Origin: Daucus carota subsp. sativus | Lineage: Eukaryota > Streptophyta > Magnoliopsida > Apiales > Apiaceae | Length of the DNA stretch: 64,000 nucleotides | Direction of reading: 5' to 3' | Assembly: GCF_001625215.2 (NCBI RefSeq) | Contig: NC_030387.2 | Span: 32,325,606 to 32,389,605, forward strand | Shown here: in pieces, positions 1-55,802 of the stretch | Layout of the letters: every line of letters begins with the position of its first letter | How positions within the stretch are numbered: the first letter of the stretch is position 1 | Translations under genes and position numbers: made by a program | The notes under the pieces: model-generated | Told to the model about the DNA's origin: nothing | Database searches by the model: none | The model's input: the letters and a program-made list of their open reading frames with translations, nothing else

Positions 1-801
1 AGCATAGGATGTCTTGGTTCAGCAAATTCATTTTGTGTTTAACATAAAAGTTGATAAAATTCATTTTAAAGAATAAACTTGAATCCCAATTATTTCTAAC
101 TCATGAAGTTTGATTTCACATAAAATATCTCATTTTCAATGAGCCATGTTCAATCTTGCTCCAATCAATATATATATTTGATCAACAACCATAAAAGATA
201 AACAAGTTAGTAAGAACATCATAGATTTTGAAAAAGAAACTTAAATCCTAATTATTTCTAACCCATGGAGTGTAGGCATAATACAACTTAACCATAATCT
301 TTATCATATCATAAATTCGAACACCTGCTCATGCACCAGGGAGGGGCTCCTTCTACAATCACATAGACCTGCAAATATGGGGTTGAGCATTTGAAGGCCA
401 CCTACAAAGATAATTAGCATGTTAAGATCATTATAACAATATAAGATTTGTGGCTATTTCTTATTCACTTTATACATGTAATTCCCTACAGATGTGATAG
501 TGCTTTGTAATTACAGGAGTTTGAAAAAGGTTCCGTTTGACGACATAAGGATTCTAGGATAGACATTTAGTGATTTTACTTTCTCTCATTAGTTCAACAT
601 ACAAAAGATTGTTAAGAACTGATAACACCCGATGACCCTCAAATCGGTGTTAAGAAATGCAAGCAACACTGAGTTGTGTGAAATGCATAACACTGACTAG
701 ATTACACAGAGAAGAAAAGAAAAAGGAGGTACACAAAAGATACAAAAAGAGGTCAAAATGCTTAAGTATAGTCATATACCTGGCAAGGAGAGTTCTTCAA
801 A
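1..801. other. 3' flank of EBS-like copy 1
   Basis: This stretch follows the stop of copy 1 and recurs at 2952-3752, 5903-6699 and about 9590-10213. After the stop, the minus strand carries TTGCCAG followed by GTATATG, a possible donor, and near 382 an ATTTGCAG acceptor-like site. A further 3' exon, coding in an ancestor or now untranslated, could lie here. I see no other gene. Confidence 0.6.
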
Positions 802-2289
802 TCAGGAACACTCATCACAGACATAGCTGCTCAGCTGCCTTGCCCGAGCAGTTGTCATTTTGACGCAAGCTGGATGGTACCTACAAATAGCGTGTACAAC
901 ATCTAAAATGCCTATAAATATATAAGTCCACTTATACCGTAAAATAGACTATGGTAAGGCTCCATCTTGAAACTTTTCTATTAAAAGGAAATTGCAGCTC
1001 TAGCATATGAAATTTGTCTCAAATAACTATTAATAAAAAAGATAATGCATATAAAAACTAACTAAAATTAACATATATAGCAAAATTTAACGGTCATACC
1101 AGTCTTGGCATTCGTCGCACTGTATCATTAGGGTGTCAGGATTGTACGGCATTTCACACTTGCAGAACCTTCAGTTTAGAATATGCAAAAACGTTGTGAA
1201 CCAATTTAACCAAAAATAAGGGATATATTAACCAGGAAGAGTCATAAAATTCTCACACTGCAACACGATCCGTTGTAAATTCTCCAGAGGAAGCTTGGTA
1301 CTCAAAGCGAGAGTAGTAATCCTCAACAGCAACTTCTTCAAGCTCGCAATAAGCCTTAAACGAGTGCACAATACACTTCCCTATAATGGTATTGGCACTT
1401 TGGAAATCATAGTGATCAGAGAGGAACACTTCCTTTTCCCCGTGAAACTGTCTTCTGCCACCAATAGCCTCCTCAGGCCTATAATACCATCTTACTTCGA
1501 CAGTAGTTTCACCTTTGTTGTTAGCTTCTAATTTCTCCACGCGAGCAACATAGGGTGGCTTATTAGGCTCACAAGGTTGCATAAGCACGCAATCCCCAGC
1601 TACATAACATCAAGAATTTCATCGATATAAGAAACAATACACTTCCTCTCCTCGAGGCCAACATGTATATTGACATACACTTTTCAACGGCAAAAATTTG
1701 ACCTCAATAACTTTACAATGACAAAATTTATGCTTATAAAACAAGAAAGGGTTTTTGGTTTGAAGCTAGTGTGCTCAAATATTAGTACTGTCTTAAAGGA
1801 CAAATAAATAAAATCATACACATCACGTACTCCCTTCAATTAAGAGTTTCACAGAAAAGAGAACTTAATTAATTTGCACTTATATATACCAACAAAAAAT
1901 TTGATAAAAAGAAATCTATGTGTTAAAAATTCTTATTAGAATTTAAAACAAAAAAAAATCATTATGGTAAAGAGGACTTGCTGCCCAAATATAAACTACA
2001 AAGGTGATGTATCATGTATGCATATTGGACTACATCAACACAAACCATGATGAATCAAAAATCAAATTATAGCACACATCGTATCTAATGTTTCGGGGGG
2101 GAGGGGGAGGATGAGCGGAGAGAAAAATGGAGAGAAGGAGAGGGAAAGAGGGATGAGGGTGAGAAAATGAAAGGGAGAGATGGATGAAGGGAGAGGAGGG
2201 GAAATAGAGAGATCACCTTTGATAACTTGGTTGCTTCCTCTAACAGGGTAAGAAATGGAGTTTTGGTTGACATCTTTTGTCTTTGCCAT
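802..2289 (-). CDS. EBS/SHL-like BAH-PHD histone reader, tandem copy 1
   Basis: Four exons read on the minus strand: 2217-2289, 1257-1599, 1100-1168 and 802-880. All junctions are GT-AG and phases match, giving 187 residues. Residues 25-139 form a BAH domain with the aromatic stretch RWYYRPEE, which in EBS helps bind H3K27me3. Residues 140-186 form a complete C4HC3 PHD finger (C141, C143, C156, C159, H164, C167, C183, C186), which in EBS binds H3K4me2/3. Known EBS and SHL proteins (about 230 residues) repress flowering in the nucleus. This one ends one residue after the last zinc ligand, so the usual basic or flexible tail of about 40 residues is missing. Sequence mixes EBS-like (GKCIVHSF) and SHL-like ([12 protein letters not shown]) features, so I do not assign a symbol. 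It is the leftmost of four copies. The domain call is firm; activity is inferred. Confidence 0.9.
2094..2211. repeat. Purine-rich GA tract in intron 1, copy 1
   Basis: The plus strand is almost all G and A (runs such as GGAGAGAAGGAGAGGGAAAG) directly after the exon 1 donor. Matching tracts lie at 5045-5162 (copy 2), 8055-8192 (copy 3) and 11,392-11,512 (copy 4). On the sense strand it is a CT tract. It may influence transcription or form triplex DNA, but this is inference. Confidence 0.8.
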
Positions 2290-3752
2290 TGAAAGTTAAA
2301 CCTTTCTAATCAAAATCACCAAATTTGTTAGGAAACGTTGTTTAAGAGTGAAGAGGTAGTTTAGTATACCGGGGAGAAGTGTGCTCATTCTTGATATAAT
2401 TTATAATTTCTAATCTTACTGGTGTATTCAATTCAAATCTATTAAAAATCTTTTGATTATTGTAATCCAGATGTATTAAATTCGTATTGAAATAATGTTA
2501 TTCTTCGATGCTGATTTTAATTCATCTTCAGGTATTTAATCAAGATTTGCAAAGATGCTTAAAGATATGATGATATTTATAAGATATTATATGAAATCTA
2601 TTAAATTGTTCTCTTGTTCAAGACTCTTTGATTTTTTTGAAATTTATAAAATGATAAATTCTTAGGGTGAGATTTGTTAATTTATTATGTATATTTGGTA
2701 ATCTCTACTCAATATGTAGGATTAAAAACATGAATTATCGAAGATTTTATCTTAAGTTCACTACACGCATAAATTTAAAATTTACTGTTACATATTATGA
2801 TTCATATATCAAAAAAAAGAACGACGCAAAGCTCATATATTAACAAATCTTCATTATTATCGATTTGACATATTGAATATAATTTTAGATACTCAGCTTC
2901 ATAGTCTAAATGAACATTTATATTTAGAAAATTAGTATGGAATTACATTTGAGCATAGGATGTCTTGGTTCAGCAAATTCATTTTGTGTTTAACATAAAA
3001 GTTGATAAAATTCATTTTAAAGAATAAACTTGAATCCCAATTATTTCTAACTCATGAAGTTTGATTTCACATAAAATATCTCATTTTCAATGAGCCATGT
3101 TCAATCTTGCTCCAATCAATATATATATTTGATCAACAACCATAAAAGATAAACAAGTTAGTAAGAACATCATAGATTTTGAAAAAGAAACTTAAATCCT
3201 AATTATTTCTAACCCATGGAGTGTAGGCATAATACAACTTAACCATAATCTTTATCATATCATAAATTCGAACACCTGCTCATGCACCAGGGAGGGGCTC
3301 CTTCTACAATCACATAGACCTGCAAATATGGGGTTGAGCATTTGAAGGCCACCTACAAAGATAATTAGCATGTTAAGATCATTATAACAATATAAGATTT
3401 GTGGCTATTTCTTATTCACTTTATACATGTAATTCCCTACAGATGTGATAGTGCTTTGTAATTACAGGAGTTTGAAAAAGGTTCCGTTTGACGACATAAG
3501 GATTCTAGGATAGACATTTAGTGATTTTACTTTCTCTCATTAGTTCAACATACAAAAGATTGTTAAGAACTGATAACACCCGATGACCCTCAAATCGGTG
3601 TTAAGAAATGCAAGCAACACTGAGTTGTGTGAAATGCATAACACTGACTAGATTACACAGAGAAGAAAAGAAAAAGGAGGTACACAAAAGATACAAAAAG
3701 AGGTCAAAATGCTTAAGTATAGTCATATACCTGGCAAGGAGAGTTCTTCAAA

Positions 3753-5240
3753 TCAGGAACACTCATCACAGACATAGCTGCTCAGCTGCCTTGCCCGAGC
3801 AGTTGTCATTTTGACGCAAGCTGGATGGTACCTACAAATAGCGTGTACAACATCTAAAATGCCTATAAATATATAAGTCCACTTATACCGTAAAATAGAC
3901 TATGGTAAGGCTCCATCTTGAAACTTTTCTATTAAAAAGGAAATTGCAGCTCTAGCATATGAAATTTGTCTCAAATAACTATTAATAAAAAAGATAATGC
4001 ATATAAAAACTAACTAAAATTAACATATATAGCAAAATTTAACGGTCATACCAGTCTTGGCATTCGTCGCACTGTATCATTAGGGTGTCAGGATTGTACG
4101 GCATTTCACACTTGCAGAACCTTCAGTTTAGAATATGCAAAAACGTTGTGAACCAATTTAACCAAAAATAAGGGATATATTAACCAGGAAGAGTCATAAA
4201 ATTCTCACACTGCAACACGATCCGTTGTAAATTCTCCAGAGGAAGCTTGGTACTCAAAGCGAGAGTAGTAATCCTCAACAGCAACTTCTTCAAGCTCGCA
4301 ATAAGCCTTAAACGAGTGCACAATACACTTCCCTATAATGGTATTGGCACTTTGGAAATCATAGTGATCAGAGAGGAACACTTCCTTTTCCCCGTGAAAC
4401 TGTCTTCTGCCACCAATAGCCTCCTCAGGCCTATAATACCATCTTACTTCGACAGTAGTTTCACCTTTGTTGTTAGCTTCTAATTTCTCCACGCGAGCAA
4501 CATAGGGTGGCTTATTAGGCTCACAAGGTTGCATAAGCACGCAATCCCCAGCTACATAACATCAAGAATTTCATCGATATAAGAAACAATACACTTCCTC
4601 TCCTCGAGGCCAACATGTATATTGACATACACTTTTCAACGGCAAAAATTTGACCTCAATAACTTTACAATGACAAAATTTATGCTTATAAAACAAGAAA
4701 GGGTTTTTGGTTTGAAGCTAGTGTGCTCAAATATTAGTACTGTCTTAAAGGACAAATAAATAAAATCATACACATCACGTACTCCCTTCAATTAAGAGTT
4801 TCACAGAAAAGAGAACTTAATTAATTTGCACTTATATATACCAACAAAAAATTTGATAAAAAGAAATCTATGTGTTAAAAATTCTTATTAGAATTTAAAA
4901 CAAAAAAAATCATTATGGTAAAGAGGACTTGCTGCCCAAATATAAACTACAAAGGTGATGTATCATGTATGCATATTGGACTACATCAACACAAACCATG
5001 ATGAATCAAAAATCAAATTATAGCACACATCGTATCTAATGTTTCGGGGGGGAGGGGGAGGATGAGCGGAGAGAAAAATGGAGAGAAGGAGAGGGAAAGA
5101 GGGATGAGGGTGAGAAAATGAAAGGGAGAGATGGATGAAGGGAGAGGAGGGGAAATAGAGAGATCACCTTTGATAACTTGGTTGCTTCCTCTAACAGGGT
5201 AAGAAATGGAGTTTTGGTTGACATCTTTTGTCTTTGCCAT
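3753..5240 (-). CDS. EBS/SHL-like BAH-PHD histone reader, tandem copy 2
   Basis: Exons are 5168-5240, 4209-4551, 4052-4120 and 3753-3831. The predicted 187-residue protein is identical to copy 1. Over the whole 2,951-bp unit I see only homopolymer-length differences from copy 1: one extra A near 3937 and one fewer A near 4902. This means either a very recent duplication, ongoing gene conversion, or an assembly artefact. The upstream spacer before copy 3 is short (5241-5902) and lacks the roughly 600-bp promoter-side block found upstream of copies 3 and 4, so copies 1 and 2 may be expressed differently. It has the same complete BAH and PHD domains and the same abrupt end after the PHD finger as copy 1. 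Confidence 0.88.
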
Positions 5241-6699
5241 TGAAAGTTAAACCTTTCTAATCAAAATCACCAAATTTGTTAGGAAACGTTGTTTAAGAGT
5301 GAAGAGGTAGTTTAGTATACCGGGGAGAAGTGTGCTCATTCTTGATATAATTTATAATTTCTAATCTTACTGGTGTATTCAATTCAAATCTATTAAAAAT
5401 CTTTTGATTATTGTAATCCAGATGTATTAAATTCGTATTGAAATAATGTTATTCTTCGATGCTGATTTTAATTCATCTTCAGGTATTTAATCAAGATTTG
5501 CAAAGATGCTTAAAGATATGATGATATTTATAAGATATTATATGAAATCTATTAAATTGTTCTCTTGTTCAAGACTCTTTGATTTTTTTGAAATTTATAA
5601 AATGATAAATTCTTAGGGTGAGATTTGTTAATTTATTATGTATATTTGGTAATCTCTACTCAATATGTAGGATTAAAAACATGAATTATCGAAGATTTTA
5701 TCTTAAGTTCACTACACGCATAAATTTAAAATTTACTGTTACATATTATGATTCATATATCAAAAAAAAGAACGACGCAAAGCTCATATATTAACAAATC
5801 TTCATTATTATCGATTTGACATATTGAATATAATTTTAGATACTCAGCTTCATAGTCTAAATGAACATTTATATTTAGAAAATTAGTATGGAATTACATT
5901 TGAGCATAGGATGTCTTGGTTCAGCAAATTCATTTTGTGTTTAACATAAAAGTTGATAAAATTCATTTTAAAGAATAAACTTGAATCCCAATTATTTCTA
6001 ACTCATGAAGTTTGATTTCACATAAAATATCTCATTTTCAATGAGCCATGTTCAATCTTGCTCCAATCAATATATATATTTGATCAACAACCATAAAAGA
6101 TAAACAAGTTAGTAAGAACATCATAGATTTTGAAAAAGAAACTTAAATCCTAATTATTTCTAACCCATGGAGTGTAGGCATAATACAACTTAACCATAAT
6201 CTTTATCATATCATAAATTTGAACACCTGCTCATGCACCAGGGAGGGGCTCCTTCTACAATCACATAGACCTGCAAATACGGGGTTGAGAATTTGAAAGC
6301 CACCTACAAAGATAATTAGCATCTTAAGATCATGTATAACAATATAAGATTTGTGGCTATTTGTTATTCACTTTATACATGTAATTCCCTACAGATGTGA
6401 TAGTGCTATGTAATTACAGGAGTTTGAAAAAGGTTCCGTTTGAAATAAGGATTCTAGGGTAGACATTTAGTGATTTTACTTTCTCTCATTAGTTTAACAT
6501 ACAAAAGATTGTTAAGAACTGATAACACCCGATGACCCTCAAATCGGTGTTAAGAAATGCAAGCAACACTAAGTTGTGTGAAATGCATAACACTGACTAG
6601 ATTACACAGAGAAGAAAAGAAAAAGGAGGTACACAAAAGATACAAAAAGAGGTCAAAATGCTCAAGTGTAGTCATACCTAGCAAGGAGAGTTCTTCAAA

Positions 6700-8274
6700 T
6701 CAGGCACACTCATCACAGACATAGCTGCTCAGCTGCCTTGCCCGAGCAGTTGTCATTTTGACGCAAGCTGGATGGTACCTACAAATAGCGTGTACAACAT
6801 CTAAAAAAATTCGTATAAATATAAGTCCACTTATCCCCTAAACCAGACAATAGTAAGGCTCCGTCTTGAAATTTTTCTATTAAAAAGGAAATTGCAGCTC
6901 TAGCATATGGACATGGATATATATAATCATTTTTGTCTGCACGCCCATAAAGGATTATTTGATCTCAAACTATTAATAACAAAGAGAATCATATAGAAAC
7001 TAATTAGAATTAACATATATAGCAAAATTTAACGGTCATACCAGTCTTGGCATTCGTCGCATTGTATCATTAGTGTGTCAGGATTGTACGGCATCTCACA
7101 CTTGCAGAACCTTCAATTTAGAATATGCAAAAAAGTTGTGAACCATTTTAACCAAAAATAAGGGACATATTAACCATGAAGAGTCATAGAATGCTCACAC
7201 TGCAACACGATCCGATGTAAATTCTCCAGTGGAGGCTATGTACTCAAAGCGAGAGTAGTAATCCTCAACACCAACTTGGTCAAGCTCGCAATAAGCCTTA
7301 AATGAGTGCACAATACACTTTCCTATAATGGTATCGGCACTTTGGAAATCATAGTGATCAGAGAGGAACACTTCCTTTTCCCGGTGAAACTGTCTTCTGC
7401 CGCCAATAGCCTCCCCGGGCCTGTAATACCATCTTACTTCAACAGTAGTTTCACCTTTGTTGTTAGCTTCTAATTTCTCCACGCGAGCAACATAGGGAGG
7501 CTTATTAGGCTCACAAGGTTGCATAAGCACGCAATCCCCAGCCACACAACATCAAGAATTTCATCCTTATAAGAAACAATACACTTCCTCCTCGAGGCCA
7601 ACACGTATATTCACATACACTTCTTAACGGCAAAAATTTGACCTCAAATAACTTTACAATGACAAAATTTGTGCTTACAAAACAAGAAAGGGTTTTTGGT
7701 TTGAAGTGTGCTCAATTAGTACCGTCTTAAAGGACAAATAAATAAAATCATACACATACAGTACTGTCTTCAAGAGTTTCACAGAAAAGAGAACTTAATT
7801 TGCACTTATACTAACAAATATTTTGATAAAAAGAAATTTATGTGTTAAAATTATAATTTAGAACAAAAAAAAATCATTATGTAAAATAGGACTTGCTCCC
7901 CAAATAAGACCCAGCCCAAAAAATACAAAAATGGCAGGTACAACAACAACAACAAAAAAACCATATAAACTACAAAGGTGATATCATGTATGCAAATTAG
8001 ACTACATCAACACAAACCAAAAATCAAATTATAGCACACATCGTTTCTAATGTTTGGGGGGTGTGGGGGCGGGGATGAAGGGAGAGAAAGGAGAGAGAGG
8101 GATGAGAAGAGAGAAGGAGAGGGAAAGAGGGATGAGGGTGATCATAAAATAAAGGGAAGAGATGGATGAAGGGAGAGAAGGAGGGGAAACAGAGAGATCA
8201 CCCATGATAACTTGGTTGCTTCCTCTAACAGTGTAAGAAATGGAGTTTTGGTTGACATCTTTTGTATTTGCCAT
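6700..8274 (-). CDS. EBS/SHL-like BAH-PHD gene, copy 3, exon 2 acceptor lost
   Basis: Expected exons are 8202-8274, 7199-7541, 7042-7110 and 6700-6778, colinear with the other copies, with open frames and all PHD zinc ligands intact. The protein would begin [11 protein letters not shown] and differ from copies 1 and 2 at scattered sites (for example [11 protein letters not shown] in the BAH domain and Ala instead of Ser as last residue). The acceptor before exon 2 reads GG at 7543-7542, where copies 1, 2 and 4 have AG. Normal splicing into the BAH exon should therefore fail; the nearest upstream AG would add extra sequence. The gene may be a pseudogene, may use a cryptic site, or may make a protein starting inside exon 2. 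The other junctions look normal. Confidence 0.75.
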
Positions 8275-10213
8275 TGAAAGTTAAACCTTTTTGATTAAAA
8301 ACAACAATTTTGTTAGGAAACGTTGTTAAATACTGGGGAGTAGTTTAGCATACGGCGGAGAAGTGTGCTAATTCTTGATATAATTCTTGATATAATTTAT
8401 AATTTCGAATCTTACTCGTGTATTCAATTCAAATTTATTAGAAATCTTTTGATTTGTGTAGTGGTGTATTAAATTCGTATTGAAATAATGTTGTTGTGTA
8501 TTCTTCAAAGTTGATTTTAATTTATCATCACATATTTAATCAAGATTTCAAATTGCTTAAAGATATGATGATATTTTTAAGATATTATATGAAATCTATT
8601 TAATTGTTCTCTTGTTAGAGACTCTTTGATTTCTTTTTTGAATTTATAGGGTTGGTGAGATTTGTTAGTTTATTATGTGTTTTTGGTAATCTCTACTCAA
8701 TACGTAAAATTAAAAATATGAATCATAGAAGATTTTATCTTAATTACTTCACTACAGTGTGCATTATAAATTTAAAATTTACCGTTACAGATTATGATTC
8801 ATATATCCAAAAAAAGTAAATGAGGATACTAAGCTCAGATATTAACAAATCTTCATTATTATCGATTTGACATATTAAATATATCTTAGATACTCAACTT
8901 TATTGTCTAAATGAACATTTTTAGGAAATTAGTATAGAATTACTTCTGAGCATATGATGTCTTGATTTACCAAATTCATTTTGTGTGTTTGCTAATAAAA
9001 ATTGATCAAATTTGTCAATTTGTATCTCATGAAATTTTTTCAAATTTAACTTGTGGAAATTAAAAGTTACTTATCAGCTACTTTAAAGATGTAAGTACAT
9101 ATGCCAGTTTTTTCTAACCTAAAATAATTGCACAATTTGGAGAAAAATGATTGAAGTGGGAAAATATATCCCATTTATTAGATTTTTTTTGCCATTCCTT
9201 AGATTTTAAAATGCTTGAAATTTTACTTCTGTCGAAGACAATGGCATGCTAGAAATTAGCATTTTTCATAACGAGTATCATAAAAAATTGATTAAATACT
9301 TGGATTGGGGATGATTGACTAAATAATCATTTAGTCATATATTATATTATATTATATTGGAACAAATGTTTTGTATTAATGTGAAAAAACGGCCAACTCC
9401 AAATCTTTTTTCTGGTAAAAGATGTTTATAAATACAATATTTTGGCCCCTGACTTTTTATTTTTTTCTAGATTGAAAATATTACTCCTCAAATTCTTATT
9501 TAGTAAATTAATTAGATGCATGCAAGCATCCTATGCTTGTTAGTTAGTGTTTTCTTCTTTCTTTTTTTCAATCGCCATGAAACTTGAATAAACTTGAATT
9601 CTAATTATTTCTAACTCATCAAATTTATTTTCACTTAAAATAACTCATTTTCAATGAGCCATGTTCAATCTTGATCCAATTAATACATATATTTGAACAA
9701 TCATAAAAGATAAATAAATTGGTAAGAATATCATAGATTTTAAAGAAGAAACATGAATCCTAAATATTTCTAACCCATTGATCAATGTAGGCATAATACA
9801 ACTTAACCATAATCTTTATCAGATCATAAATCCAAAACACCTGTTCATGCACCAGGTAGGGGCTCCTACAATCACATAATATGGGGTTGAGCATTTAAAG
9901 GCCACCTACAAAGATAATCAGCATGTTAAGATCATGTATAAGAATCAGATCATGTGATTGTTAAGGATTCTAGGATAGACGTTTAGTGATTTTACTTTCT
10001 CATTAGTGCAACATACAAAAGATTGTTAAGAAATGATAACATCCGATGACCCTCAAATCGGTGTTAAGAAATGCAAGCAACACTAAGTTGTGAGAAATGC
10101 ATAACACTAACTACATCACACAGAGAAGAAAAGAAAAAAGAGGTACACGAAAGATACAAAAAGAGGTAAATATGCTTATGTGTAGTCATACCTAGCAAGG
10201 AGAGTTCTTCAAA

Positions 10214-11590
10214 TCAGGCACACTCATCACAGACATAGCTGCTCAGCTGCCTTGCCCGAGCAGTTGTCATTTTGACGCAAGCTGGATGGTACCTACAAAT
10301 AGCGCGAACAACATCTAAGAAAATGAGTCTTGATCAGAAAATAGTGTGAAAATTTAAAATGTTTCTGGATCCGTCACTGCATACCAGTCTTGGCATTGGT
10401 CGCACTGTATCATTAGTGTGTCAGGATTGTACGGCATCTCACACTTGCAGAACCTTCAGTTTAGAATATGCAAAAAAATTGTGACCAATTTAACCAAAAA
10501 TAAGGGATGTATTAACCAGGAAGAGTCATAGAATGCTCACACTGCAACACGATCCGATGTAAATTCTCCAGTGGAAGTTATGTACTCAAAGCGAGAGTAG
10601 TAATCCTCAACACCAACTTGGTCAAGCTCGCAATAAGCCTTAAATGAGTGCACAATACACTTTCCTATAATGGTATCGGCACTTTGGAAATCATAGTGAT
10701 CAGAGAGGAACACTTCCTTTTCCCCGTGAAACTGTCTTCTGCCGCCAATAGCCTCCTCGGGCCTGTAATACCATCTTACTTCAACAGTAGTTTCACCTTT
10801 GTTGTTAGCTTCTAATTTCTCCACGCGAGCAACATAGGGAGGCTTATTAGGCTCACAAGGTTGCATAAGCACGCAATCCCCAGCTACAAAACATCAAGAA
10901 TTTCATCGATATGAAAAACAATACACTTCCTCCTCGAGGCCAACATGTATATTCACATACACTTTTTAACGGCAAAAATTTGACCTCAAATAACTTTACA
11001 ATGACAAAAATTATGCTTATGAAACAAGAAATAAATTCATGTTTTGAAACGTGGGACAAATAAAAAAAATCATATACATCCGGTACTCTCTTTAATTAAG
11101 AGTTTCATAGAAAAGAGAACTTAATTTGCACTTTTACCAACAAAAATTTTTGATAAAAAGAAATTTATGTGTTAAAAATTCTTATTAGAATTTAAAACCA
11201 AAAAAAAACATTATGGTAAAGAGGACTTGCTGCCCAAATAAGACCCAGACCAAAAAATACAAAAAAGGCAGGTAGAACAAAAAAAAACCACATAAACTCC
11301 AAATGGTGATGTATCATGTAATTGGACTACATCAACACAAACCATGATGAATCAACAATCAATTTATAGCACACATCGTATCTAATGTTTCGGGGGGAGG
11401 GGGAGGATGAAGTCAGAGAAAAATGGAGAGAAGGAGAGGGAAAGAGGGATGAGGGTGAGAAAATGAAGGGGAGAGATGTGGATGAAGGGAGAGGAGGAGG
11501 GGAAATAGAGAGATCACCTTTGATAACTTGGTTGCTTCCTCTAACAGTGTAAGAAATGGAGTTTTGGTTGACATCTTTTGTATTTGCCAT
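10214..11590 (-). CDS. EBS/SHL-like BAH-PHD histone reader, tandem copy 4
   Basis: Exons are 11518-11590, 10541-10883, 10385-10453 and 10214-10292, all with GT-AG borders, giving 187 residues. The protein starts [14 protein letters not shown] and shares the [11 protein letters not shown] variant with copy 3, so copies 3 and 4 form one pair and copies 1 and 2 the other. In the PHD finger the residue between the second pair of cysteines is Gln (CDQC) where the other copies have Glu; no zinc ligand is affected. This copy is nearest the outer end of the array and has the fullest 5' flank (11,591-13,015), including about 155 bp (12,707-12,861) absent from the flank of copy 3. It is the best candidate for the ancestral, normally regulated member. 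Confidence 0.88.
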
Positions 11591-13035
11591 TGAAAGTTAA
11601 ACCTTTCTAATAAAAAACACCAATTTTGTGAGGAAACGTTGTTAAAGACCGAGTAGTTTAGTATACTGGGGAGAAAAGTGTGCTAATTCTTGATATAATT
11701 TATAATTTCGAATCTTACTAGTGTATTCAATTCAAATCTATTAAAAATCTTTTGATTTGTGTAATCCAAGTGTATTAAATTCGCATTGAAATAAAGTTGT
11801 TGGGTATTCTTCAATGTTGATTTTAATTTATCATTACGTATTTAATCAAGATTTCAAATTGCTTAAAGATATGATGATATTTTTAAGATATTATATGACA
11901 TCTATTTAATTGTTCTCTTGCTAGAGACTCTTTGATTTCTTTTTTGAATTTATAGGGTTGGTGATATTTGTTAGTTTATTATGTGTTTTTGGTAATCTCT
12001 ACTCAATACGTAAAATTAAAAACATGAATGATAGAAGATTTTATCTTAATTACTTCACTACACTGTGCATTATAAAATTAAAATTTACCGTTATAGATTA
12101 TGATTCATATATCCAAAAAGAATAAATGAGGATACTAAGCTCAGATATTAACAAATCTTCATTTTATTCATTTGACATATTAAATATAATCTTAAATACT
12201 CAACTTTATTGTCTAAATGAACATTTTTAGGAAATTAGTATAGAATTACTTCTGAGCATATGATGTCTTGATTTACCAAATTCATTTTGTGTGTTTGATA
12301 ATAAAAATTGATCAAATTTGTCAATTTGTATCTCATGAAATTTTCTCAAATTTAACTTGTGGAAATTAAAGGTCACTTATCACCTACTTTAAAGATGTAA
12401 GTACATATGCTAGTTTTTTCTAACCTAAAATAATTGCACAATTTGGAGAAAAATGATTGGAGTGGGATTAGATTTTAAATGCTTGAAATTTTACATCTGT
12501 ACATGGAAGACAATGACATGCTAGAAATTAGCATTTTTCATAACGAGTATCATAAAAAATTGATTAAATACTTGGATTGGGGATGATTGACTAAATAATC
12601 TTTTAGTCATATATTATATTATATTATATTATATTAGAACAAATGTTTTGTATTAGTGTGAAAAAAAAAAAGGGAACTCCAAATCTCTTTTCTGGTACAA
12701 GATGTACTGCCTTGCTTCTCCCCGGCTAATTGTGCCTTTTGTATTACATTTGTTTTGTCATTTACAGCAAAAAAATTGTTGTGACATAGTGATGAAACAA
12801 GTGACCGCAGATAATATCATTTGATCTGAGTTTGTATTTCTTTTTTGCTCTTCTAATATTTTATAAATACAATATTTTGGCCTCTGACTTTTTATTTTTT
12901 TCTAGATTGAAAATATTACTCCTCAAATTCTTATTTAGTTAATTAATTAGATGCATGCAAGCATCCTATGCTTGTTAGTATTTTCTTCTTTCTTTTTTCA
13001 ATCGCCAAAAAAGTAAAATTTTAATAATATTAATT

Positions 13036-13568: not shown

Positions 13569-13698
13569 TTGCCGCTAATAAGTATTATTTGAACATTAAT
13601 AATATACTTTCAATCTGGCAAAAAAAAAAAAATAATATACTTTCAAGAATATATGTGACTTAAGTTCTGCGGTCAATATTCTGCCCATGCTAAAACAT

Positions 13699-16035
13699 TC
13701 AGAGGAATGGAGAAGATATATCCATCTGAATAGGATTTGCAGCAACATTGTTCATATAATAATGATGAGGATGTGCAGCATTCATAACCATAAATTGCAT
13801 GTCCTCTAATGGCCTCCAATGTCGTTTTCTTTGATTTATGAACCAGTTGTTTATTTGCTTCTGATCCAAACCAGTTGCTTGTCCCAGGGCTAGCTTCTGT
13901 GACTCCTGTTGATAAACAAGGACAATAGAAAATAGAGTTGAACTCGCCAATATATATATGCACCATTCACAGAATCAAGAGGTTTATGCTGTTTGAATAT
14001 AGAATCAATTGCATTTGAAAAAATCAAAATTAATTGACAGTCATATTATAAATTCATGCTTGAGGAAAATTACGATGATATTAATTCAAATTCTTTAAAG
14101 TTACCGATGGATATGGCCATTTGTAATTTCTGGTCCACCATTGCAACAGCTGTTGTCGAGCTTCGTTAGGCAACTTCCCTTTCTTTCTTTTCTTCGTAAA
14201 CTCCTGCTTAAGATTTTCAAGATATCCACCACTGTACTTGCGTAGAAGCTGACTCTTTAACTCCTCATCCTCTGCTTGAGGGTCTGCGAGATTATTATGC
14301 ATGCCATTGTCCTCAACAGATGCTGAGACATAGCAACAAATATATTATAAAAGCTATTCAGTAAATAAACACTAATTTTGTATATCTATCAGCAGGTAAT
14401 TTGAAAGTCAAGTAGATAATCAGGCGGTAATTCTGAGAAAAATCAATGAAATTAATAATATGCAAGTATCAAAAAAATGTGGTCAAGTATGCAGGCGCAT
14501 AAAAAGCACATTAGTACTTGCATACCCCTCAAATACCTGCAAATTCTAATTCTGCACGACACAAGGTCAGAATCCCTCCATACATATATCAGCAAATCCA
14601 ATAAAGAGAAATTTAGATCTGATAAAAAAAATAAGGTATTTTGTCTTATTCAGTTAAGGGATGGTAATTAATCTTCTATACATATACATGTAATATTAAC
14701 CTCATTTGTATGGCTTGAGCAATCGGTGGACGACCATGTTCATATATACTTGCATATGCATATTTTGCTAATTCAGAATTTTCACACAAAATTAAAGTGT
14801 TAGAACGGAAGAATTTTATATCAGGGTATGATTTAATATTAAGGTCCGGCTACTGACAAACTTATTTAGTTTGGTACACAGACATTTGAAGACAATGATA
14901 TGAAATTTAAATTTAAAAATAAATCAGAAATGTTTGCCATCACTTCATTTTACTTCAAACTTATATCATAGTTGAAATCTTCTACATTAAAAAAGAATGG
15001 TTCATAATCTTCATACTTATTCTCTTCTCAATCTTGTCATAAGATATCGCTTTTTTTCCCAGATACCTTGGCTCACAACTCCATTTTTTTTATTTCGTTC
15101 ATCTGATTTTTATTTTCCTCACAATATTAGTAACATTATAACCTACTAAGGAAAAACTAGAAGTTGTAATCTACGAATTAAGAGTCAAATACTATAATCT
15201 CTAGATCAAAGGATATCACCATCTCAAGAACTCAAATCTATCATAATATGATGCGGATGTGTGTCTAATTATGATTTTTGTTTGGATAAAGGTATTTTTC
15301 ATTTAAAAAATAAATTTCAATAAGAATATAGTAAAACAAAGATGAAGAACAATTAAATACCAGAAAAGATATATGTATGTACATATTTACCAGAATCTGA
15401 GGAGGAAAGTGCTTGGAATTGAGACTCGATTCTGGACAAGGAAAGCACAGCTTCTGTGAAGGTCTTACAGAGTTCTTGCTCATACTTTGTCAGCATCTCA
15501 CAATATGCTTCCATGAATTGATCCAACGCCGGATCATCCCCAATCGGTGCCTTTCCACCACCCATTGCCACTAGTGATGCATTAATTTCCTCCAGCCGCG
15601 CCACAACTTCCGGTGGTGCTCCTATCTATATATATATATATATATTATGTCACATAAGCATTTATAAAAACACTAGCTAGCTAATTTACTAAAAGACTAA
15701 ATTTCATGAAAAATATCATTTTTTTTTACCTTTTGGCAGCTGATATAAGCTGCGACGAGACGGTTGTAATGGGGATGAGACATGATCTTTGTTTTCACCA
15801 ACGTCGAAGAAGAAGAGCTGTTGCTGATTCCTCCATCAGTACTGCTGTTGTTTATGTCCATCAAGTAGCCACTAGGGTTTCTAACTGTTTCATTTTTGCT
15901 AGGGTTATTATGATCAGCTTGTAAGAGCATCAATGAAGAATTATGTACTTGGTTTGGGTACTGATTATCACTAAATTGTTCTAAAAGCGTGTCCATCAAG
16001 CCTGAAGTGCTTCCCTGACCGACCCCACCATCCAT
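13699..16035 (-). CDS. STM: Class I KNOX homeobox protein, STM-like
   Basis: Four exons (15730-16035, 15391-15625, 14105-14322, 13699-13905) with GT-AG borders give 321 residues. KNOX1 lies at about 80-118 ([13 protein letters not shown]), KNOX2 at about 130-180 ([20 protein letters not shown]), ELK at 199-222, and a TALE homeodomain at about 223-285 with the three-residue PYP loop (250-252) and [13 protein letters not shown]-type proteins are nuclear factors that keep shoot meristem cells undifferentiated. The tail [19 protein letters not shown] followed by NPIQMD closely resembles the C terminus of Arabidopsis STM and separates it from KNAT1/2/6. Exon 2 uses the first of two adjacent TAG acceptors; the second would break the frame. 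Odd points: an extra Gly in ELK (KYSGGYL), and changes at usually invariant homeodomain sites ([19 protein letters not shown]). It may be a diverged second STM copy. Confidence 0.92.
14323..15390 (-). other. Intron 2 of the STM-like gene
   Basis: The 1.07-kb intron separates the KNOX2 exon from the ELK-homeodomain exon, a usual place for a long intron in class I KNOX genes. It is AT-rich; I see no transposon ends and no coding segment in it. Confidence 0.7.
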
Positions 16036-20888: not shown

Positions 20889-21475
20889 AATTATCTGCTA
20901 CTAGAAATTTTCATTGATTTGATTGCTATACAAAGGCGGCTAAACTTGAGTTGCAGCCTTGCATGCAATGTTGCTGGACTTCAAAAATTTTAAGTGTTCT
21001 GCAGAGACTGATATTATTTGAAATTTTTTGATCGAATTCTTCTGATATTATTTTAATGGATGCACTATTTGCAAATAGTAAGATTCTTCTGTTTACACTG
21101 TAAAGTCTGAATTTATTAACATGAAAATTGCTCGACGATTAGCACTGATACAACTACTATAAAAATAGAGCAGTTGGACTTATGTGCCTTGTTTTAGCTT
21201 GTAACTAACTGTGGTGAGTATGCTTGTTATTTCGTGCAAATTGTCATCGTTTGGCATTTCAGTGCTGTTTTTGAAATCTGTTATTTGTTGTCAATTCTCT
21301 CTGTTCTGAGTTCATATTTTGGCAGTTCAGAACTTACTTGAATGCAGAGCGAAAAACAGTGAAGGAAATACTCCAGGATCTTCAGAAGTTCCGAGGCCAT
21401 GATATAATGGAGCAAGGGAACTAGGATGAGGTATCAGATTCTAAAATAACAAAGTAAGAAGAAAAAACTGTTCCT
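20889..21475. promoter_or_regulatory. 5' flank / probable 5' UTR of NRAMP gene
   Basis: At 21,325 TTTTGGCAG looks like a splice acceptor, so an intron in the 5' UTR is possible. A six-codon upstream frame ATGCAGAGCGAAAAACAG with stop lies near 21,343, before the main start at 21,476. I see no further gene. Confidence 0.45.
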
Positions 21476-23486
21476 ATGGGTTCTCCTCCTCATGCAAAAA
21501 ATCAAAACAACCGGCTGCTAAATTTTGTATCTGCACAATCAACTAATAATGACTATTTCGACGATGATTATCTCTCCTTGGACACTGGATCTTCTCATAC
21601 TGTCATTGATGGTGATGACAATATAAGACCTCCTTTCTCATGGAAGAAGCTGTGGCAATTCACGGGCCCGGGTTTTCTAATGAGCATTTCATTTCTTGAT
21701 CCTGGAAATTTGGAGGGAGATTTACAAGCAGGTGCAATTGCAGGGTACTCATTGTTATGGTTGTTGTTATGGGCTATGGTGATGGGATTGTTGATTCAGC
21801 TTTTATCGGCCAGGATTGGGGTGGTCACGGGGAAGCACATGGCTGAGATATGTAGAGATGAGTATCCGAGATGGGCTAGCTTCTTGTTATGGTGCATGGC
21901 CGAGTTGGCTTTGATTAGTGCTGATATCCAAGAGGTTATTGGGAGTGCTATTGCTATTAATATTCTTAGTAATGGTGTAGTTCCTCTCTGGGCTGGTGTT
22001 ATTATTACAGCTTCTGACTGGTAAGTAATTTTACAAGGGTCTATCTGGCGTGGATACACACTAGCAACTACTTTTTACTTAGATGGAGGTTTTTGATTGG
22101 CGGAGGTTTTTGATTGGCGGAGATTTTTGTGCATGCAGAGGGCCATTATTATTAATGAGATGTGAACCAATAAAAATCCACCACCTAACTAAAAAGTGGT
22201 TGTTAGCGTGTGCTCTGGGTACACACCAGAAAATCCGATTATTATACAATACAAACTCTTGGTAAATTTTATTGTTTATTATCTCAGTTGTGTTTATACT
22301 GTTATGTTTTCTGGAACAGTTTCTTGTTTCTGTTTCTTGAGAACTATGGAGTGCGGAAACTAGAAGCTGTCTTTGCTGTTCTTATTGCAACTATGGCCTT
22401 ATCGTTTGCTTGGATGTTTGCTGATACAAAACCCGATGCAAAGCAACTACTAATTGGTCCGAACTTGATCAATTGAAAATCTTGGGCTTACTTCAAGACT
22501 GTTGCTGTAAATTAAAAAACTCCTTTTGTTTCAGGTCTTTTGGTTCCAAAACTCAGACGAAAAACAATCCAGCAAGCTGTTGGAGTTGTTGGCTGCGTGA
22601 TAACGCCTCACAATGTATTCTTGTACTCTGCTCTAGTGCAATCAAGAAAAGTAGATCCAACCAAGAAAGGCCGTGTCCAAGAGGCTCTCTATTACTACAC
22701 AATTGAATCATCCATCGCGGTTTTTGTGACCTTTATGATCAATTTATGTGTAACAACTGTATTTGCTAAAGGATTCTATAATACCAAGGAAGCCAATAGT
22801 TTGGGGCTACTGAATGCAGGGCAGTATCTTCAAGAGAGGTATGGTGGAGGCTTATTCCCAATCCTCTATATATGGGGAATCGGCTTATTGGCTGCGGGCC
22901 AAAGTAGCACCTTAACTGGAACATACGCAGGACAGTTTATAATGGGAGGTTTTCTTGATCTGCGTATGAAAAAATGGCTAAGATCTTTAATAACCAGAAG
23001 CTGTGCTATCGTTCCAACTATTATTGTCGCTGTTGTTTATAATAGGTCTGATGCCTCGCTTGATAATCTGAACGAATGGCTTAACGTCCTTCAAGGTATG
23101 CAAATTCCTTTCGCCCTCATCCCACTTCTTGTACTTGTAGCTGATGAGCAGCTCATGGGAGTTTTCAGAATTGGACCGCATTATGCAGTAAGTTCATTTC
23201 TCACATTTCTGCACGAGGCCTATTAGTACGCGATGTTATGGTACTAGTGATTAATGCAAATATTTTACTGGTTTTTTTAATGCAGGGGATTATGTGGATC
23301 GTGGCAGCCCTGGTAACCGCGATTAATGGATATGTTCTGGTAGATTTTTTTTCCTCAGAGGTCAAGGGGCTGGTGTTTGGATCTTTGGTTTGCAGTGTGA
23401 TTGTTGCTTATGCTGCATTTATATTGTATTTGATTTCTTATGGAAATGCATGGTTCAGCAGATTTGGCTTCAAGAGATTAGTTTAG
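21476..23486 (+). CDS. NRAMP divalent metal transporter (NRAMP2/3/4 group)
   Basis: Exons 21476-22020, 22320-22456, 22535-23187 and 23286-23486 join in phase to 511 residues, the length of Arabidopsis NRAMP3 (509). Plant members of this group move Fe, Mn and other divalent metals with protons, mostly across the tonoplast. The hydrophilic N terminus (1-60) is followed by about 11-12 membrane helices. The first metal-site motif LDPGN is at 75-78 and intact, as is [10 protein letters not shown]. The second motif, normally MPHN in helix 6, reads TPHN here (T251). The ATG-to-ACG change removes the sulfur ligand that tunes metal choice. The donor of exon 2 is weak (G/GTCCGA) but phase and homology support it. 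A dead partial copy lies 1.4 kb upstream. Family identity is sure; substrate is open. Confidence 0.95.
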
Positions 23487-51931: not shown

Positions 51932-54900
51932 CTAGATAAGTTTACGCAGAAGAAGTTTCATTCCATGCTGAGGCATGAGGAGGAAAGCATGCTTTGGAGC
52001 ATGCACATACGAGGGAGATAGCTCGAAGCTGAAGCGTTGCAGGAGAGTTGCTATAACGAATTTATCAGTAACCATTGCCATACTCTGTCCAATACATTTT
52101 CGAGGACCTCCAGCAAAAGCAAAGTAAACAGATTGCATCTTTGAGTTGAACACACCTTCAGCAAATCTTTCGGGCTTAAATTGTTTCACATCTTCTCCCC
52201 AAATATCAGGGTCGTGGTTCAGTAAAGTTATTGGTATGGTCAATTGGATCCAGGCCGGTAGAACCATGTCTCCTAACTTTGTATCTTTGGAGATGGCTCG
52301 GTGAATCATACTAGTTGGTGGATACAATCTCATTACTTCATACAGAATCATTGTTATCTGAAACAATCAAACTTTCATGTCATCATCTTTCGGATATTAT
52401 TTCATCAATATTAAAAATAATTATCTCCATATTCGTTTGAAATGTTAATCATATACTCTCCCTGTCCCACCCAAATGTTTAAGGTCTAAGTAAAGTATGA
52501 GTAGAAAAGTAAGAAAAAGTAAAGATAATGGTGAGACCGGTTCATATTTTATGTATACAGCAAGTACAGAGGGGAAATATATGGAGAATAGTTGACTTTT
52601 ATATTATAAAATTTTACTATATTTGGTAAGTTTTGAAATATAAAAAATCGAATAAGACATCTGTCGCATCTCAAAACTGAAAGCGTAAAGAGATGGATGG
52701 GACGGAAGAAGTACTAATCTTGAACCGTACTCTAGCTCAAGTTGTTGGAAACTTGACAAATTCACATAGTGTATAAGAACATCTCCAACGAGATTGACTA
52801 AAATAATTGAAAAATGTATTGTGTTTCGATGAGATTTAGCTAAGGATTTTGTATGGTTGGAGATGCTCTGAGTATTTAGATTTGTTTTAAGTATTAGAGT
52901 ATGGGGAAGAAAGACTCACAATTTTGAGTTGGTTTAGTCCCTCAACGTTGGGCTTCTGATCTCCGAAAACCTGCAAAACCTCCTCTCTAGCTCGCTCTTG
53001 CCATTCCGGATGCTTGCTGAGAACATAGAGCAGCCATGTCAAAGAGCGTGCTGTAGTTTCAGTCCCAATGAAGTGAAAACTTCTACACTCATCAACCACA
53101 TCGTCAAGACTAAATCCACTTGTTTCATCGTGAAAAGCTTCCATCATTAGTCCCAACATATCACCTTCACTACGAGCCCCGATTTTTGTTTCTTCAAGTC
53201 TCTTAGTCACCATTTTCCTCACTAAACCTTCAACTTCTTTATGCAATGCTTTCATAGTGTTCAGATCTTTAGTTGGCAGATTCCTGCATCCATTTCACCC
53301 AATTAAAGTCTTAGCCACAAGCTTCTGTTTTCCAATAGTGTTTTAAGAAAAAAAAAGGCAGGCAGCCAACTTCTGAGTTTATAAGTCCGACACAACTTAT
53401 TTGTACTGTCTGTATGACAAATTAATAAGTCAATTTCGGACTCATAAGTCAGGAAGTTGAGAATTTAGTAACTTATTTTAATTTTGAAATTAAAATTTAC
53501 AAAAATATACATGTTCACTTTAAAGAATAATTTGTTATTATATTAATAATTTTTACTCAAGTTGTACAGCCAAAAATTTTATCCAAACCCATAAAATGAA
53601 AATTTCTTCTTGCTTATAATTTAATAATACTTATTTTAAGTTACGCCAAACAACCTCTCACTTGCAGAGTTAACTTATTATCGGAAAAAGGTACCTGTGA
53701 TTGTTTCAGAAAAAATGTTTGGAACACAAGGAACACCATTTTGGTTTGTAAGATTGAAAGTAGAGGAATTCATATAATTACCACCATCCGGGGAAGAACA
53801 TGAGCTTGGCTACTTTGGCTGCTTGTTCGTTAACCTTAAGCCGAAGTTGATGAATCCTTCTTATGTCTTCGCTCGTCTCGCCTACAGCAAGTGTTTTGCA
53901 CATTACCTCATAGGTTAAAGCTTCCAAGTCTGGCCATATATCAACCTCGCCAGATTCCTTTGAAGCCAGGGACTTGTTCCATTTGTCTATCATTTCCAAA
54001 CTGCTGTTCACGATTGATGGCACCATGTTCTTTCCATGTCAACAAAAGAAAACAAGATCTAAAATCAATATTGATTGTCGTGTGCAATATGTGTGCATGT
54101 GCACGGGAGGGAGGGGCTTATTATTGGGGCTTATTACACAACATGAAAAATATACGACGTTTGGCTAAGATTAAGTGGCTGTGTTAAAAAAACTTGAGTT
54201 TTCCAGTTTCTACTTCCGACTTCTTCTAGTCTAAAAGAAATACTTTTTAAACCAAATAGACCCGAATAAGTTTAACCCGACTTCTCTTATAAATAAGTCG
54301 AGAAGTGGTGTGTCCAAACACCCAGCAAACTATAATAAAAAAATATGGAATGAAAAAGTTTGTCAAAATATTATGGGCTTCTTCAAGAATATTTAAGTTA
54401 CAAATTTATTTGCTTTTAAAAATAATTGTGCAACCATATATGTAACCTTGTTCGTCACTCCAGTAACGTGAAAATCAACTGTTTTCAGCCTTATTTGCAA
54501 CCTCGACCATATTTTTGAAAATAAGTTTGGATATATGGATATGTTTGTAATATTTCCCAAATTCTAATCATGTAATATATTAAAATTTGTTAAAATTTAG
54601 TCCATTTAATCATATATAGAATGTCAAAAGTGCACTATACTAATATGAAAGGGAGTATAAATACTAACTTTTGATGTTATACATTTGTTTTTGAAATCTT
54701 TTATTTGAAAATATATTTTTATTCCGAGAAAGATTCTTTTGGTGTGAGCAAAGTGTACATTTATTTTAGATGAATAGACAAAAAGACTTAAATATATAGA
54801 AGTATCTTGGTTCCGGCCGGCGGCCATGCAAGTGTCTAAAACATGGTACAAACCAGTTACCTTCATCTTCTCAATGTGAAAAGCAGGGTTGATGATCTTC

Positions 54901-55802
54901 TTATGTTTAATCCATGTGTTTCCCTCAATGGTGAAGAGTCCCCCCACAAGCACATGAGCCATATGATCTGCCTTTGGCTTTTGAAATTCGTTTGGTCTTG
55001 ACAGAATGTCCTTTACTAGTAGCGGGTCCATTATGTTCAGTCTAGGTTTTGTGCCAATCCAGATGAAAAATTGTTTCCCTACACATGCAAACATGAGGAT
55101 TCAGATCTAAATTTAATACGATCCTGGTAAGCCTTCTCCAAAATCTTGGAGCTAGAAATGATCAGAGCGAGAGGTTGTTGAAATATAGTAATAAAATATA
55201 TTTGTGAACTTTCTCCAACACCTTATAAAATCTTAAGATTTTAGATGGACTGATTCTCAACATGCGATAAGAACTCTCATTTAAATATGTTTAAGCATAT
55301 AACGAAAGATATTAGAGGCTGTTTGAAAACATGCATATCATTTCAAATGACAGGATTTGAGTTGTCATTTCAAATTCTCAGATTTATATACTAATATTCG
55401 AATGTGTGTGGATTTCAAATGAAATCCAAATCCAAATTCTCAAACAGGTTATTTCATTAAATCCAGGATTTCAAATGAAATCCAAGTTACCAAACAGGCC
55501 ATTAGGGTTTGTGCATTCATACCATACTTCTGGACCAAGTGGTGGTGATACGGCAAAACACGGGCCGGTATATCATCTGAGAGTTGTTCCAAAGGCTTGG
55601 AAACGGCTTCTACTCTCATCCTCTCCATCTCTTTGGCGTCACCATAAAAAAACCGATACGGATTCCCCCTAAACCCTAGCTCCCTCACTCGTTTCTCCAC
55701 TTTCTTTGGCCTAATCCAAAATCTGTTTACAACTTTCATCATGTAGCTCAACATAAGAACTGCAATCAACGAGATCACAGCATAAGCGATATTCGCATCC
55801 AT
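51932..55802 (-). CDS. Cytochrome P450, clan 72
   Basis: Exons 55523-55802, 54861-55078, 53782-54029, 52920-53283 and 51932-52357 give 511 residues. An N-terminal membrane anchor (about 5-22) is followed by a basic segment with RPKKVEKRVRELGFRGNPY, typical of clan 72. Further landmarks are the I-helix FIGTETT (320-326), the K-helix ExxR (E377-R380), PERF (433-436) and the haem loop FAGGPRKCIG (451-460) with Cys458 as haem ligand. All are intact. P450s of this clan oxidise terpenoids, hormones and fatty acids on the ER. The sequence resembles CYP72/CYP721-type enzymes but I cannot fix the subfamily or substrate. Five exons with these phases fit CYP72A-type genes. Introns carry several MITEs. 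Confidence 0.93.
52456..52711. mobile_element. Degenerate Stowaway MITE in P450 intron 4
   Basis: The ends CTCTCCCTGTCCCA and TGGGACGGAAGAAG are imperfect inverted repeats of the Stowaway type, with TA on both sides (52454-52455, 52712-52713). Older than the one at 48,803. Confidence 0.8.
52776..52869. mobile_element. Short MITE in P450 intron 4
   Basis: AGAACATCTCCAACGAGATT is inverted at the other end as GGTTGGAGATGCTCT. It is 94 bp long and related by its ends to the element at 44,148. Confidence 0.65.
53343..53665. mobile_element. MITE-like insertion in P450 intron 3
   Basis: The words TAAGTCCGACACAACTTAT, CGGACTCATAAGTCAGGAAG and ACGCCAAACAACCTCT mark a member of the GTTTGGC group. The right end is recognisable; the left end is not clear. 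Confidence 0.5.
54168..54330. mobile_element. MITE-like insertion in P450 intron 2
   Basis: CTTCCGACTTCTTCTAGTCT, ACTTCTCTTATAAATAAGTC and GGTGTGTCCAAACACCCAGC match the GTTTGGC-type group. Limits are approximate. Confidence 0.5.
55177..55262 (+). mobile_element. Possible solo LTR of a TRIM in P450 intron 1
   Basis: An 86-bp segment runs TGTTGAAATATAG to CTCAACA and is followed by a degraded primer-site-like TGCGATAAGAACTC. It resembles the repeats of the TRIM at 50,257 read in the other direction. Old and incomplete. Confidence 0.4.

Follow-up and report, generated by a model that had tools for sequence, protein, structure and literature searches.

How did the carrot genome come to carry a tandem array of BAH-PHD genes resembling the histone readers EBS and SHL, and would so many copies of such a reader have consequences for the plant? 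We address these questions for a 64,000-nucleotide stretch of Daucus carota subsp. sativus chromosome 7 (the window; contig NC_030387.2, C7:32325606-32389605), in which positions 1-13015 hold the right end of the array, with its genes on the minus strand. Our joint reading, which we hold tentatively and give nearly even credence, is that the C7 array was probably expanded and homogenised through unequal exchange and may encode many copies of an uninhibited dual reader that would act beside or against EBS and SHL.

Repeat units and gene models

Four BAH-PHD units follow one another head to tail at window positions 1-13015, each with a BAH exon and two PHD exons, an arrangement that the sequence-only reading had proposed and that repeats, gene models, and Pfam scores confirm. 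A 25-base unit marker (up to 3 mismatches allowed) occurs four times in the window versus 0.00 times expected from 100 shuffles, and direct-repeat families (20 of 35 families shown) have start-to-start spacings of 2951-2952, then 2949-3047, then 3303-3613. We call the genes of this array type A and, in window numbering, distinguish a young type (units 1 and 2) from an older type (units 3 and 4). Units 1 and 2 align across 2952 columns with 0 mismatches and two 1-base homopolymer gaps. The first 300 bases of unit 3 (5903-6202) are 100% identical to both, and beyond them unit 3 has diverged (at 7142-7441 it matches units 1 and 2 at 93%); this unit looks like a junction of young with older sequence. 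The units and their genes are located in the window as follows.

1-2951, minus strand: repeat unit 1, young type (spacing 2951-2952; the repeat is cyclic, hence unit edges are arbitrary)
2952-5902, minus strand: repeat unit 2, young type (repeat spacing and alignment of unit 1 with unit 2)
5903-9580, minus strand: repeat unit 3, older type (direct-repeat families; right edge approximate)
9581-13015, minus strand: repeat unit 4, older type, right end of the array (direct-repeat families; left edge approximate)
802-2289, minus strand: BAH-PHD gene of unit 1; exons 2217-2289, 1257-1599, 1100-1168, and 805-880; stop TGA at 802-804; 187 residues
3753-5240, minus strand: BAH-PHD gene of unit 2; exons 5168-5240, 4209-4551, 4052-4120, and 3756-3831; stop at 3753-3755; same protein as unit 1
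6700-8274, minus strand: BAH-PHD gene of unit 3; exons 8202-8274, 7199-7541, 7042-7110, and 6703-6778; stop at 6700-6702; exon-2 acceptor TGG, not TAG
10214-11590, minus strand: BAH-PHD gene of unit 4; exons 11518-11590, 10541-10883, 10385-10453, and 10217-10292; stop at 10214-10216; intact, 187 residues

Scripted models give the type A gene four exons of 73, 343, 69, and 76 nucleotides, followed by the stop. GT donors and AG acceptors are present in window units 1, 2, and 4. Unit 3 is probably not spliced like the other units and not functional, because its exon-2 acceptor is lost and the nearest AG upstream, as read from the sequence, would introduce a stop codon. The four genes claimed earlier are therefore present as four units, but units 1 and 2 encode one protein and unit 3 is without its exon-2 acceptor AG. 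A domain search had been suggested as a check on homology, and both domains exceed the Pfam cut-offs in the spliced proteins of units 1/2 (a single protein) and 4, at 77.5 and 77.8 bits for BAH (cut-off 30.8) and 38.0 and 38.3 bits for PHD (cut-off 24). Intron 1 opens with a long pyrimidine-rich (GA/CT) tract in the array genes (window 2096-2210) and in carrot EBS1 (C4 49.3837 Mb).

The suspicion that the array is truncated at the left edge of the window proved correct, as the array extends approximately 37 kb further left. A six-frame Pfam search of the genome (441,086,747 bases on 11 contigs) returned 96 BAH matches, counted by exon and a lower bound; 17 of them form the array at C7:32288922-32336489, and a version of the array with 11 units is found on C9. 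Among scripted models begun at 27 exon-1 sites (16 on C7 and 11 on C9), 25/27 gave complete four-exon genes and 2/27 were not completed by the patterns. One identical 187-residue protein is predicted from 15/27 models (8 on C9 and 7 on C7, the latter including window units 1 and 2), with coding sequences that comprise 2 alleles and one differing site; single-base gaps account for most of the differences between young units. Another 3/27 models are older forms whose frames are intact, among them window unit 3 with its lost acceptor.

Reader residues, the C-terminal end, and carrot relatives

To compare reader pockets we transferred cage and contact residues given for SHL in the accessible portion of PMC6013494, and the His/Asp pair reading H3P30 from that of PMC13068663, by alignment and in EBS numbering; the H3P30 columns are our own assignment. 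All tested BAH residues (M39, Y49, W70, Y72, D94, H95, and D97), including the aromatic cage (Y49, W70, and Y72) and the His/Asp pair, are kept in 5/5 type A rows. In the 4/4 type A rows given with exon 3, the PHD residues are F148, Y155, P157, M161, Q163, and W170, with F, Y, and W at the aromatic cage positions 148, 155, and 170; the first of these cage residues is written as F141 in SHL (PMC6013494, same portion).

The best matches to a 166-residue BAH-PHD query from unit 1 in the PDB were Arabidopsis EBS (E-value 2.8e-79) and an SHL (8.6e-75). Like Arabidopsis EBS, its best solved match, the array protein has a BAH followed by a PHD and keeps the tested contact residues, with Phe for Tyr148. 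Unlike EBS, it ends at the residue matching EBS 195 (longest matched EBS chain, 234), falls outside the EBS group in our tree, and is encoded in a tandem array. Arabidopsis and poplar SHL share the BAH-PHD order and the same contact residues, but the array protein lies outside the pair formed by poplar SHL (PtSHL) and the carrot gene at C9 0.518 Mb, has no residues after the PHD, and again comes from a tandem array.

The C-terminal end is uniform across type A. TGA directly follows the last PHD codon in 15/15 pattern matches on C7 and 11/11 on C9 (26/26), and carrot EBS1, EBS2, and SHL read on beyond this point. At 187 residues, the predicted protein is below the 199-336 described for the EBS/SHL family in the part of PMC6599366 available, a described range and not a strict definition. 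The C-terminal region of EBS has been reported, in a source available in part, to autoinhibit H3K4me3 (histone H3 trimethylated at lysine 4) binding. By its predicted sequence the array protein is EBS-like, not EBS proper, being without the C-terminal autoinhibitory tail.

Separate EBS and SHL genes had been proposed as the mark that the array adds to the family, and we found three EBS-type genes (C4 49.38, C6 29.498, and C6 29.510 Mb) and one SHL-type gene (C9 0.518 Mb); because these exist elsewhere in the genome, the array genes are extra members. The accompanying view that EBS and SHL are single genes in most plants holds for SHL, but according to the available text of PMC6599366 EBS is present in multiple copies in, for example, poplar, cotton, and moss.

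Carrot contains four further types of BAH-PHD gene. Type B comprises six genes on C1 (32.217-32.250 and 32.726-32.746 Mb), which resemble type A in the BAH exon (55-71% identical) and in stopping no more than 9 codons after the PHD (5/6), but which are not near-identical repeats and have lost H95 and D97 in 4/6 rows, 2 of these 4 also being without a PHD cage residue. Type C is a second BAH-PHD array, with 13 BAH matches about 3.6 kb apart at C1 32.775-32.818 Mb; the one unit read (C1:32776500-32780500) has lost Y49, M161, Q163, and W170, residues from both reader pockets. Type D consists of 18 near-full-length copies of a 3-kb stretch, 13 at C7 32.01-32.195 Mb (one in two pieces), 4 at C9 43.16-43.21 Mb, and 1 on C2, together with partial copies at C9 14.28-14.94 Mb. 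These repeats lie on both strands and are 92-100% identical to the reference copy (100% for one C9 copy); 15/18 contain a BAH match, 2 of them with an internal stop, and two type D rows have lost D94, M161, Q163, and W170, in a part of the alignment that is not secure. Individual reading covered a minority of the type C and D copies. Type E is one gene at C4 3.43 Mb. Position 39 is Leu in carrot EBS1 and EBS2.

In a tree of 21 rows (midpoint root, for drawing only), type A forms its own clade (99/100) and PtSHL joins the C9 0.518 Mb gene (98/99). AtEBS (Arabidopsis) joins the three carrot genes on C4 and C6 (82/78, unstarred), and a group of EBS and SHL excludes type A (82/84, unstarred). The placements of types C, D, and E are unsure, with C and E on long branches and D attached to E. 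In this tree the predicted array proteins are EBS-like and neither EBS nor SHL orthologues. The original description as EBS/SHL-like readers thus stands insofar as these are related BAH-PHD readers, but they fall outside both clades, are tailless, and in one of the four window units have a broken acceptor.

Copy number on C7 and C9 and the surroundings of the array

How many copies does the plant contain? We lean slightly toward copy number having been inflated by assembly, such that a single chromosome 7 locus, with perhaps 10 young units and 4 older ones, appears in the assembly as two overlapping C7 pieces and again on C9; this is compatible with the other readings considered below. Runs of 100 Ns lie inside the C7 array (C7:32305847-32305946) and at the left edge of the C9 array (C9:43049363-43049462), and the two C7 pieces flanking the first run both match C9. 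One alignment joins C9:43049463-43075639 to C7:32332099-32305947 (26.2 kb, 99.34%, 130 gap openings, 23 mismatches) and another joins C9:43068947-43084412 to C7:32305846-32290364 (99.63%, 46 gap openings, 8 mismatches), so that a single 6.7 kb segment of C9 is matched by both C7 pieces. Over a diverged C7/C9 stretch of about 4.7 kb, in 31/33 gaps it is C9 that has lost sequence (a single base in 30 of them), and 25/33 are in homopolymers (a count without a control for homopolymer content); of 15 raw mismatches there, 8 are one shifted block and 4 lie at the very end, leaving 3. Each array also has one unit about 230 bp longer than the others, with the extra sequence in intron 1 (C7:32322424-32325605, 3181 bp; C9:43055925-43059094, 3169 bp). 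Counted from the same end, this long unit takes third place in either array, and the 26.2 kb alignment spans it. These features suggest that a single locus entered the assembly twice, in a less polished form on C9.

Several observations count against this account. The C9 array passes without Ns at C9:43084412 into sequence that has no alignment above 300 bp to the fetched C7 stretch and that has a 98% copy at C9:43123369, and C9 43.16-43.21 Mb bears its own relatives of the C7 neighbourhood. Four units are present in the window alone. Assembled BAH-PHD copies number about 70 including damaged ones, with type A contributing 28 (17 + 11). Leaving out type A on C9 brings this to about 59, and any overlap between the two C7 pieces would lower it further.

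The remainder of the window contains other genes. A homeobox gene, presumably of KNOX type, adjoins the right end of the array (window 13673-15990). Two long open reading frames at window 21458-23226 look to us like parts of an NRAMP-type metal transporter, and minus-strand open reading frames at window 51932-55100, with a FAGGPRKCIGQ stretch, belong to what we take to be a cytochrome P450 gene. A search of the whole window against 4227 Rfam families gave 0 matches to structured RNAs at the gathering score. In the genome, one Bet v 1-type exon, taken from 1 of 7 such stretches, matches the carrot allergen Dau c 1 (PDB 2wql, E-value 1.1e-55, 92/94 residues by our count) better than celery Api g 1 (2.6e-48).

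Growth of the array and possible roles of its protein

What might the array do? Under our joint reading, unequal exchange would have expanded and homogenised it. Its protein would be a working dual reader, with the BAH predicted to bind H3K27me3 (histone H3 trimethylated at lysine 27) and the PHD predicted to bind H3K4me2/3, and its PHD finger would always be open, since it has no counterpart of the EBS tail to which autoinhibition of H3K4me3 binding is ascribed. Many copies would then supply a high dose of uninhibited reader, which may add to EBS and SHL or compete with them at Polycomb-regulated genes, for example flowering genes.

Ratios of nonsynonymous to synonymous substitution (dN/dS; Nei-Gojobori, four distinct coding sequences compared in six pairs, each with 8 to 28 changes) are 0.31, 0.35, and 0.48 between young and older sequences and 0.14, 0.17, and 0.56 among older ones, below 1 in 6/6 pairs. 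Values below 1 among diverged units favour retained protein function and are no demonstration of selection on copy number. The proposal that a local cluster reflects selection for dosage or a new role is not borne out, as unequal crossing-over would equally produce young units that are nearly identical.

Other results weigh against a special role for the array protein. The six dN/dS pairs share sequences, rest on few changes each, and include damaged unit 3, and the 15 young coding sequences, being two alleles one site apart, carry no selection signal of their own. Frameshifts or stops occur in 7/27 models, some of which may be consensus errors; since C7 unit spacings vary from 2936 to 2951 (not counting the long unit or the spacing over the N gap), this may also hold for some of the C7 frameshifts. 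Tail loss is not specific to the array: read without a splicing model, 5/6 type B genes end no more than 9 codons from where type A stops, and the exon 4 assigned to the third EBS-type gene (C6 29.498 Mb) ends one codon after the type A stop. A search by basic peptides did not identify the final exons of the carrot EBS tails.

These short tails in other carrot relatives mean that a short tail need not indicate a special role, and they both weaken the joint reading and strengthen its principal rival, neutral tandem amplification, in which a redundant EBS-like gene happens to lie where unequal crossing-over readily occurs, its copy number drifts, and the copies are without consequence. We regard this as a real possibility, if a somewhat doubtful one. 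Such drift fits the two 1-base gaps that alone separate units 1 and 2, the broken acceptor of unit 3, and the duplication and decay seen in other clusters of the family (e.g., the partial copies at C9 14.28-14.94 Mb). It fits less well with dN/dS of 0.14-0.56 among the four distinct coding sequences, or with type A keeping all tested reader residues when type C (one unit) and type D (two rows) have lost some.

A dominant-negative competitor, a tailless protein that occupies histone marks or the partner EMF1 without passing on repression and so weakens EBS and SHL, seems to us unlikely; it would agree with a protein whose BAH and PHD are kept and whose tail is gone, but no result here separates it from a positive-acting reader. 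A retrocopy origin of type A is ruled out by three introns in each of the 25 complete models, as are pure pseudogenes for 15 young and 2 older models, in which frames and GT/AG sites are intact, window unit 3 being damaged.

On a wider and quite improbable view, Polycomb-linked BAH-PHD readers have radiated specifically in the carrot lineage, to about 70 copies in the assembly, a figure that covers five types besides EBS and SHL and counts both damaged copies and the possible duplicate on C9. Type A would have been fixed as a tailless, uninhibited dual reader and amplified, with types C (one row) and D (two rows) losing one or both pockets. Such a radiation could serve copy-number control of chromatin memory, for example in biennial flowering, or could have arisen from genetic conflict over silencing by Polycomb.

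No earlier report of a tandem EBS-like array was announced in the titles and abstract openings we found, a search that most subscription journals lay outside and that does not show absence. The main text of the carrot DH1 v3 paper (PMC10581907) has 0 occurrences of "EBS" and 0 of "early bolting"; the same text names flowering time as a trait under selection in carrot domestication. EBS and SHL couple H3K4me3 and H3K27me3 reading at flowering genes, according to the available part of PMC13361950. If neutral, the array would still be a copy-number change in a chromatin regulator, and one that assembly gaps and duplicate contigs can distort. If the joint reading holds, a crop with an array of tailless versions would offer a natural test of the role of the autoinhibitory tail and of whether reader dosage sets flowering time.

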